64,000 nt of DNA from Rugalucina vietnamica (Eukaryota > Mollusca > Bivalvia > Lucinida > Lucinidae). This document shows, in pieces, positions 49,001 through 52,000 of the stretch. The DNA lies in assembly GCA_964017185.1 (NCBI GenBank), contig OZ024871.1, positions 63,058,866 to 63,122,865 of the forward strand, written 5' to 3'. Under the pieces are notes generated by a model that saw only the letters and a program-made list of their open reading frames with translations, was not told the DNA's origin and did no database searches. Position numbers and translations under genes: made by a program. Every line of letters begins with the position of its first letter. The stretch's first letter is position 1.

Positions 49001-52000
49001 TATTTTAACAAAATTATACATGTTCATGTAAATGTATTACACATGCTATTTTGCCATTAGCTAACATATACAGGAGTTTGTCACACAGATGCCTATACAC
49101 TAGATGGGTTTGACTCGGAGGGTAAATTCCCGGTCGTCCTGGGCCATGAGGGCGGAGGTATTGTGGAGAGTGTCGGGGACGGAGTGACCCATGTAGCACC
49201 AGGTAGGGGTCAGGGGATCGGGGAGGGGCAGCAAACTGCAGAGGAATTATAGGATCATGGCTGCAGGGCCAGTTTTCATAAAGTTACTTGAGCATTTAAC
49301 ATTAAATAGTGATAATATGGTCTCACAAAACAGGTAATTTTGCATGCTATGTTCTAATATGGAATCTGGCCCTGTCTATTCCAAAATTTGAAGACAGACA
49401 TATTTCCAGGGGATGATAGAGGTGGAGGGGGTGGGACTCTTTATATCACTTGGGACTGGGCAAACAGGCTTTACACTTAAGGTCTAGGAAAAATATTCTC
49501 AGATTTTACACCTGAAGTAAGAACTGGAAAACAGAAGAAAAAGGGATTCAGCCATTTATCAACACTAATTCCTGTGCAGTTTCAGTCCCACATGCATTTT
49601 TATACAATTTATAGTAACATTTAGCATATTGTTGACACAGGTTTCTGCAAATGGGATGTGTCACTCTGACTACACAGTGTGGGAGGGTCGGGCTTGGGAC
49701 CCACGCACAAAGTTTCCAATGATATTGGGTCATGAGGGGTCAGGGATAGTTGAGAGCGTGGGAGAAGGGGTTACAGTGGTGGCACCAGGTATATCACCTG
49801 TTTACCTCCCTTGTAGCCTTTCAATAGTCAGAGTGGCAAAGTAATTTTGTTTTGTGACATGGGAATTACCTCCCTTATAAATAGGCAGAGTGTTCAGGTT
49901 TTTAAGGTGAAATTGAATATTACCTTTTTTGAAAATTGAACTCCTAAAGTGGGCAGAATAGTGGGAGCATGTCAAGCTTTGCTTCCAAATGCATTACTGG
50001 TAGTAGCATCAATTTTGTCCCTCGCACCAAACATAAAGTTTTAGCCTGTACATCTCATTTTGTGTTCATCAGACTTGTTTAAAATTTAGAATGGACATTT
50101 TCACACGAGGCTCATTTCATACAAGAAACACTTTGATGAATGCTTTGTCCTCTATGCTTTAGATGTCATGTCATAAAAATCCGTATTTTGTCCCCTTAGA
50201 AGCTGGCTTCATAGTAGAACAAGTAGAGTGGACATGGATTATGGGCTAGCCACATACAAGCAAAGAGTCCATAGTTCAAGCATCTTGAATCTTCTCTTGT
50301 GCTCATCATAGTCATTGATAGTCATTGCTGTATCTGCTTTGCATTGTGAATCCTTGTCATTTTGAATATGCCATTGTTAGGCATTTCTCCACACTACATG
50401 TACATGTAATCAGTTTCTGACTCTTTTAGCAGGTTCTTGAAAATTCAGCTGATTCAATGTACCTGTTCTACAATGTATTTGGTTTGTTCAGATTTTGTGT
50501 CACTGTCTGTATTTGTGCATATCTTAAGTTATTTGATTTAAGCTAATATTTTTATCATGATAAACGTTTGATGGTTATTAGGATTTAGTGATAATGCATA
50601 CCTTACCTTCATAGCAAAGATTAGTATGTTACAGGTCATGCTGGTTATGTATGTAAAAGTCAATCACCTTGTAAACTTGAAAGTTGCAGCACATAATGAG
50701 CAATGACGTGAGAAAATCGGTCTTCAGGGTGTTGACCCTGACCAGGTATGACACAAACCGGCCTGTACTGTCACGGAAAAAGGCTATAAGCTTGGAATTT
50801 CGGATTTAAGAAGAAGAGGGATTGTACTATCCGTGTAGCAAAAACAAAGGCACTGGTCAACTGAACAGTTACTGTGCTGCACAGCTGATCAGTGCCTTTG
50901 CTTTGGCATAGACAAAAATCCGGTTTTCTCATGACGGTGCTCGTATGTTTTACATAGGGGCAGGATGATAAAAATACTGCAGACTCAGTACTTATAGTAA
51001 GACTGACATTATCTTGGGCTGAGCAGACATAATCCTAAACTGATTGTTTGCTAGCTTGCTAATCCCCTCTGCTTAACTAAATAAGCTGAGAATATACATT
51101 GAGCAAATGTGGTTGTTAAATAAATCGTAGGGAATGCGTTATTGTTATCTTTGATTTGTCATTTGGATAGATCTCCAACAAACATTGTGTCTGAGGTGAC
51201 CATAAAATACAGCTGCATATTCCCCAGTGACAATGTATTTTGAAATTAAATGTCTGATGAACGATGTTTTATTTCGATCTCTGATAAACATTGTGTAAAG
51301 CTAATCTCCATAATTTTCTTAAACTCGAATATCTCTGATGAATATTGTGTAATTCTGATCACTGATCAACATTGTGTCAAGCCAATATCTGATAAACATT
51401 GTGTAAATTTGATCACTGATGAAGAATGTGTATTTCTGTTCTCAAATGAACAGTGAGTAAAATGAACATTGTGTAAAGCTCATTTCTGTTGAACATTGTG
51501 TTTCAGGTGATCATGTGATCCCCCTGTATATTCCCCAGTGCAATGATTGTGTATTCTGTAAGAGCCCCAAAACAAACCTCTGCAGTAAGATAAGGTAAAA
51601 ATTCAATATTCAGGAAATCTCTCTTTTTTTTTTTTTTTCAGTTTGTAAGATAGCTGCCTGGCGGATTATAAGAATCTAACATGAGTGTCAGGGGCGTATA
51701 GACAAATTTATTACCCAACATACTATATAAAGAGAAATAAAACATTTCAGGCTGTTTTTTAAACAATTTTAGTTAAACCCAGTTTAAACCAGTTTCAATG
51801 AACTGTTTCGTGTCATGTGACGAACTGTTTCATGTGCAACAGTTTTTACTGTTTCCCAGTCAAGTGACATGCTTTGCATGCTTTTATACTGCCTGTATAC
51901 CTGCAAATATTGTCAAACAAAAAGTAATCAAAAGCAAACAACAAACAAATAAATCAAACAAACAAACAAAACATATGACCAAACAAACAAAAACAAGCAA

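Follow-up and report, generated by a model that had tools for sequence, protein, structure and literature searches.

Can one gene supply two classes of alcohol dehydrogenase (ADH) by exchanging some of its exons? The question is raised by the gene for ADH5, the class III ADH, of the lucinid bivalve Rugalucina vietnamica. The common view of ADH5 is that of a conserved housekeeping enzyme by which formaldehyde and S-nitrosothiols are kept under control. The gene lies in a stretch of 64,000 nucleotides (nt), referred to here as the window (positions 63058866-63122865 of contig C3, OZ024871.1, in an assembly of 1.09 Gb and 47 contigs), and extends about 10 kb beyond the window end. We consider it likely that this one gene carries two tandem pairs of alternative exons, 3a/3b and 9a/9b, and encodes an ordinary enzyme built with 3a and 9a (3a9a) together with a second one built with 3b and 9b (3b9b), whose substrate pocket would be altered.

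Two exon pairs in one gene

Window base p corresponds to contig base p+63058865, positions above 64000 are counted on past the window end, and residues are numbered as in human ADH5, taken from alignments. The gene is laid out as follows.

43081-43098, forward strand: candidate exon 1 (MATVGK), predicted from an upstream pattern scan; GT donor, phase 0; compare MATTGK of Mya arenaria
48397-48498, forward strand: exon 2 of ADH5 (PITCRAAV...EVRIK), by tblastn; borders tag/CCA...AAG/gtaagt
49061-49202, forward strand: exon 3a, 142 nt, class III type; Cys44, Thr46, Asp55, Glu57, His66, Glu67
49641-49788, forward strand: exon 3b, 148 nt, alternative type; Cys44, Ser46, Asp55, Arg57, His66, Glu67; loop longer by two residues
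51181-51229, forward strand: decayed partial copy of exon 4, comprising the acceptor and the start of the exon; stop after 11 codons
51507-51594, forward strand: exon 4, shared, by tblastn; the Arg114 codon spans its end
53934-54066, forward strand: exon 5, shared, by tblastn
55739-55825, forward strand: exon 6, shared, by tblastn
61673-61802, forward strand: exon 7, shared, by tblastn
63880-64010, forward strand: exon 8, shared; the window end cuts it at 64000
65005-65140, forward strand: exon 9a, 136 nt, Lys283; beyond the window
67054-67189, forward strand: exon 9b, 136 nt, Glu283; beyond the window
71157-71295, forward strand: exon 10; beyond the window
74126-74159, forward strand: exon 11, which holds the stop; beyond the window

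An earlier note on this DNA had described one duplicated exon in ADH5, present as two intact copies of exon 3 of which exactly one would be spliced in. Both copies are there with the lengths, coordinates and AG/GT borders it gave, both are open, and both run from phase 0 to phase 1. They are, however, only one of two such pairs, the second of which, 9a/9b, had been overlooked. Exon 2 joined to either 3a or 3b gives an open protein through exon 4. Inclusion of both copies leads to a TGA after 8 codons of 3b, close to the nine or so that the note had counted, and skipping of both to a stop after 3 codons. The frame permits only one copy, and the claim of exactly one reaches as far as this argument from the reading frame.

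In tblastn searches with seven ADH proteins the expectation (E) values go down to 4e-25 for 3a and 5e-20 for 3b, so these matches are not due to chance. The zinc-ligand motifs, CHTD or CHSD and GHE, occur in both copies, with Cys44, His66 and Glu67 kept, which bears out the earlier reading that the zinc Cys and His are retained. Of 47 aligned codons, 27 specify the same residue in the two exons, and the base is shared at 77 of 141 sites. They differ at 17, 11 and 36 of the 47 first, second and third codon positions and at 13 of 15 shared fourfold sites, and their flanks, judged by eye, have no clear similarity.

A search of the genome with a related protein revealed a second doubled exon, the one that encodes residues 278-325. 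Exons 9a and 9b are equal in length and in phase (0 at the start, 1 at the end), and each is flanked by AG and GT. If both are included a stop arises inside 9b, and if neither is, 15 codons into exon 10. The partners agree at 20 of 45 residues and 72 of 135 bases; 20, 15 and 28 of the 45 first, second and third codon positions differ, as do 8 of 14 shared fourfold sites. Because each exon of a pair runs from phase 0 to phase 1, only one exon of each pair fits a readable mRNA.

Whichever exons are combined, as 3a9a, 3a9b, 3b9a or 3b9b, the frame stays open up to the final stop. All four also pass the class III ADH model (NCBIfam TIGR02818, cut-off 543.95 bits), with scores of 623.8, 598.7, 581.3 and 556.2 bits, the highest belonging to 3a9a and the lowest to 3b9b. 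Isoform 3b9b is identical to 3a9a at 328 of 373 residues (88%), the single-swap isoforms at 353 and 348 (93-95%). By tblastn over the window and beyond, exons 2, 4-8 and 10 are each present in a single intact copy, and no third copy of any pair exon was found across the window and 35 kb beyond. Of the named ADH5 proteins among the matches listed, those of bivalves (Mya arenaria, Sinanodonta and Potamilus) come closest.

Opposite charges in the glutathione site

Which part of the enzyme would such an exchange change? For human ADH5, or S-nitrosoglutathione reductase (GSNOR), the text available of PMC6409631 and PMC4368689 describes Arg114, Asp55, Glu57 and Thr46 as interacting with S-hydroxymethylglutathione, and Gln111, Arg114 and Lys283 as the anion pocket for glutathione substrates. 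Exon 3 bears Thr46, Asp55 and Glu57 and exon 9 bears Lys283; the two pairs therefore cover much of this site. The a exons carry T46, D55, E57 and K283, the b exons S46, D55, R57 and E283, and Arg114 is common to both. The set Thr46/Asp55/Glu57/Arg114/Lys283 is hence complete in 3a9a and reads Ser, Asp, Arg, Arg, Glu in 3b9b.

The backbone with 3a and 9a is that of an ordinary class III ADH (ADH5/GSNOR, TIGR02818), from which 3b9b differs at Glu57 and Lys283. A changed pocket had already been suggested for 3b, and Ser46, Arg57 and the longer loop support it. As the second pair swaps Lys283, both exon-borne walls of the glutathione site may be alternative. Isoform 3a9a would act as the usual glutathione-dependent formaldehyde dehydrogenase and S-nitrosoglutathione reductase. 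Isoform 3b9b would retain the zinc ligands and the shared coenzyme half and combine them with Glu57 to Arg, Lys283 to Glu and two more residues in the 50s loop. It would probably no longer grip S-hydroxymethylglutathione or S-nitrosoglutathione in the class III way, and we expect it to remain active as a zinc dehydrogenase, with a different alcohol or aldehyde as its substrate.

Do the two charges change together in other proteins? We fetched 336 full-length proteins, of which 141 are gapped at column 57 and 195 have a residue there. An acidic residue 57 is combined with a basic residue 283 in 182 of the 195, and like-charge pairs occur in none. The reverse, basic 57 with acidic 283, is seen in three of the 336 (P0106, P0237 and P0239), all of them separately encoded ADHs. 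P0121 has Arg57 with Val283, and the remaining proteins with a residue at column 57 are uncharged at one or both sites. We refer to P0106, P0237, P0239 and P0121 as b-type, a label coined in this analysis.

Since the charge states go together in natural proteins, 3b would be expected to be used with 9b, and 3a with 9a. The b-type pocket exists in separately encoded ADHs, so isoform b here probably fills the role of a separate gene elsewhere. Taken one step further, a coordinated double swap could reverse the charges that grip glutathione, such that one gene provides two ADH classes and isoform and paralogue become interchangeable over deep time; this wider proposal we put forward tentatively, as a little too uncertain to be favoured.

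The choice of 3b and 9b could also be made independently, which would yield four isoforms with graded pockets and no coupled two-state switch. We give this nearly an even chance. It agrees with the fact that all four combinations are open and pass the class III model, and the pairs lie about 15 kb apart, with no coupling signal seen and none searched for. It sits less well with the prevalence of acidic 57 with basic 283, the three reversed cases and the lack of like-charged ones: three of the four b-type proteins have both charges swapped, and the fourth is the Arg57/Val283 protein.

Kinship and upkeep of the b exons

Where might the b exons come from? Among the best 120 matches to a query that contains 3b, P0106 is the only one with a 3b-like segment. 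Searches with the 3b segment by itself (290 and 1309 matches with E up to 1, best 120 of each) added P0121, P0237 and P0239. The four are nameless entries of source 'lgn', and they are probably cDNA, because their reading frames stand without introns on short contigs of 1.2-1.8 kb. The traits of the b-type are a 50s loop longer by two residues, CHSD, a basic residue 57 and Glu283, and 3b and 9b between them carry all four. The class III model gives the separate b-type proteins 485-503 bits, below its cut-off, with P0239 being without its N-terminus. The predicted structure of P0106 is confident (mean predicted local distance difference test score, pLDDT, 94.4). Another entry, P0238, is named Acinetobacter baumannii and is a class III ADH of 421 amino acids in which the catalytic-zinc segment is tandemly repeated within one frame, a duplication resembling that of exon 3.

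Trees were built from the window rows and 35 hand-picked proteins of the 354 fetched; the groups tested for exons 3 and 9 combined were named after the exon 3 tests. For exon 3, 3b groups with the four b-type proteins plus P0257 (support 91/83). For exon 9, 9b groups with the four b-type proteins (94/91), below the level starred in our trees and on long branches. For both exons combined, the b exons again join the four (96/88). Forcing 3b into the group of bivalve 3a sequences was rejected by the approximately unbiased (AU) test, with p-AU 0.022 for exon 3 and 0.0016 for exons 3 and 9. Exon 3 by itself does not give an exclusive clade of 3b and the four b-type proteins, and forcing that clade lowers the log-likelihood by 10.7 (p-AU 0.113).

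The earlier notion of a duplication is thus kept in so far as the exons are tandem and homologous, but 3b, which groups with ADHs of another type, is unlikely to be a recent copy of 3a. A recent duplication of 3a is ruled out by the divergence at fourfold sites and by the trees; silent change is less in exon 9. We likewise rejected the idea that a whole gene copy once lay in tandem and left these exons behind: apart from the dead piece of exon 4, exons 3 and 9 are the only ones with a duplicate, intact in both cases, and their alternating order speaks against such an origin.

Could the b exons have been captured from a neighbouring b-type ADH gene by recombination or gene conversion, with the donor lost later? 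This is doubtful, though separately encoded b-type proteins are nearer to the b exons than the a exons are, and a search of the 1.09-Gb assembly, which scored the best candidates only and was not exhaustive, turned up no separate gene of the b-type. The interleaved order 3a-3b...9a-9b would need two separate in-register captures, and nothing intact of a donor gene was found in the introns, where the dead piece of exon 4 was all that turned up.

Genome searches with P0106, P0001 and P0121 gave strong matches only in the window gene, the best elsewhere having an E of 2.4e-4 or worse; with exon 3b alone, the best match outside the gene had an E of 7e-6. Eight of ten outside loci were read (L018 and L020 were left out). 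Six have zinc segments of the CGSD/CGTD type found in more distant dehydrogenases, which from the motif we take to be sorbitol- or threonine-dehydrogenase-like, and two (L021 and L022) have no frame that passed the filter for the zinc segment. The window gene appears to be the only class III ADH gene found in the assembly.

Are the b exons kept by selection, or are they old copies that are no longer used, silent or nearly so, and preserved by chance? The gene itself offers a comparison in the decayed copy of exon 4, which matches exon 4 at 80% over 49 nt with a local alignment score of 62 that none of 200 shuffles reached. This piece sits 311 bp upstream of the real exon 4 and adjoins an array of a 27-bp repeat. 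Although undated, it may illustrate what an unused exon copy looks like in this gene.

The columns used to measure conservation were those with at least 24 letters among 28 relatives, that is, the 32 in the alignment minus the four b-type proteins. The b exons keep 17 of 17 invariant columns in exon 3 (hypergeometric p 5e-6) and 6 of 6 in exon 9 (p 0.005). At a 90% threshold they keep 20 of 23 (p 1.2e-4) and 13 of 17 (p 1.0e-3). Because all 23 invariant columns are kept, the b exons look selected rather than dead, and the finding that codon position 3 differs most within both pairs was counted in the same direction. In a neutral simulation the a exons were mutated without selection until they reached the observed distance at codon positions 1 and 2 (20,000 runs, indels excluded). 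The frame, AG/GT and four chosen residues survived in 0.32% of runs for exon 3 and in 0.04% for exon 9, where the four residues had been picked among those that 9b keeps.

Disuse of 3b and 9b is accordingly improbable to us. Duplication and decay of exons does occur in this gene, as the dead exon 4 copy demonstrates, and no b-type protein on an ADH5 backbone appears among the matches listed; yet despite many silent changes both b exons are intact and retain their splice borders and all family-invariant residues. An assembly artefact that merged two haplotypes or paralogues into one gene model can practically be dismissed, being a general possibility only, as the bases shared within each pair are too few for alleles and the exons alternate, with distinct introns, within one contig of 83 Mb.

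Splicing, precedents and meaning

How would one exon of each pair be chosen? The spliceosome would have to keep a single one, and the introns between the partners, 438 nt for 3a-3b and 1913 nt for 9a-9b, are not short; all borders are GT-AG. Competing RNA structures are not favoured as the mechanism: the duplex energies of four intron pairs lie near those of 10 shuffles each. One of them, the 3a-3b intron with the 3b-4 intron, goes marginally beyond its shuffles, at -57.7 where their minimum is -57.1, and was given no weight. Given the length of the partner introns and the lack of convincing RNA pairing in the four pairs tested, we propose that products with both exons or neither would be removed by nonsense-mediated decay.

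Several observations weigh against one gene with two alternative pairs and an altered 3b9b. Expression, exclusivity and the coupling of 3b with 9b are inferred from sequence, and the loss of glutathione use in 3b9b would follow from two charged positions. Isoform 3b9b still scores above the class III cut-off, mostly through the shared exons. Only one of the 120 best matches, P0106, is b-type, and its backbone is different; no 3b-type protein on an ADH5 backbone was found among the matches listed (best 120 per search). The protein database was clustered at 90%, and as 3b9b is 88% identical to 3a9a, the 3b9b of a relative should form its own cluster if present; single-swap isoforms could hide inside such clusters. 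This absence is weak counter-evidence, because isoform a of the source species itself is also missing among the matches listed. Mya arenaria is listed with two entries, X1 and X2, each of which contains 3a and 9a; they diverge from one another at the N-terminus. Between introns, the four pairs tested gave no strong pairing; the 9b-10 intron was not among them. The donors of 3b, 9a and 9b are without a G at +5, which is also true of one of seven constitutive donors (exon 4) and of candidate exon 1; the missing G fits regulated exons, if only weakly.

The trees contribute a further point of this kind. When the exon 3 columns are removed and those of exon 9 kept, the four b-type proteins form a group (100/99). 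With the columns of both exons removed there is no supported group of the four, only P0106 with P0237 (100/99), and P0239 and P0121 are unplaced. The window gene then pairs with the class III protein P0001 (100/98) and is not grouped with the b-type proteins, while the rejection of a clade uniting it with all four is only borderline (p-AU 0.051); the bootstrap of this tree had not settled. The b-type group dissolves without exons 3 and 9, so the kinship among the four rests largely on these exons. This bears on relations among the b-type proteins and not on the exons of the window gene. The pattern would fit b-type genes having split off more than once from a gene that carried both sets of exons, exchange of exons 3 and 9 between genes, or a plain lack of signal.

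The introns of the gene and the rest of the window hold some other elements. The exon 4-5 intron contains an array of a 16-bp unit, GACATTTCGTCTAAAG, at 52474-52624, followed at 52680-52760 by a long imperfect palindrome, seen by eye, which resembles a short inverted-repeat element. In the exon 7-8 intron, a tandem array at 62682-63607 repeats a 28-bp unit about 33 times, with 91% matching; on the minus strand it creates repetitive open frames of up to 384 amino acids, which are probably no gene. At 19225-24315 on the minus strand an open frame of 1696 amino acids resembles, from its translation read by eye, the gag-pol of a Ty3-type long terminal repeat retroelement.

Mutually exclusive exons are of a known kind. 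In the text available of PMC3557258, exons 15a/15b of the ion channel NALCN (31a/31b in some arthropods) are likewise tandem and mutually exclusive in invertebrates including molluscs, and a Glu to Lys switch in the pore is thought to change the selectivity of the product of one gene. NALCN has one pair per lineage, and its expression was shown in a snail, whereas the window gene encodes a metabolic enzyme, has two pairs with two reciprocal charge changes, and is described here from genomic sequence. Homologous exons are also swapped in human metabolic enzymes, namely KHK, PKM, PFKP and ACOX1 (from what is available of PMC9741552) and OGDH with 4a/4b (likewise PMC7969005). The usual pattern in the former source is that swapped exons spare ligand-binding residues; in the window gene Thr46, Glu57 and Lys283 all change, across two exon pairs. 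The vertebrate ADH family has several classes that differ in structure and function too, but there, as far as the accessible text of PMC4028059 goes, they are separate, tandemly duplicated genes, while the window gene apparently uses spare exons.

For animal class III ADHs we found no publication that describes alternative exons, in a search that lay mostly outside subscription journals and is not proof. The words 'exon' and 'splic' occur 0 times in the available text of PMC5913725, on ADH evolution including a cephalopod sequence, and 'exon' and 'isoform' 0 times in that of PMC8387019, on nitric oxide (NO) in amphioxus. What would be new is the presence of two pairs in one enzyme gene that reverse the charges of a pocket and mimic a separate ADH type.

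If this holds true, the animal could raise or lower its handling of nitrosothiols and formaldehyde by splicing, and conclusions on NO or toxicology drawn from 'ADH5 expression' in invertebrates would first need to take the splice switch into account. The swap would depart from the usual sparing of ligand-binding residues described in the part of PMC9741552 available to us. It would also offer a testable case for how new enzyme classes begin: with splice isoforms that become separate genes later on, or with paralogues that are absorbed into one gene.

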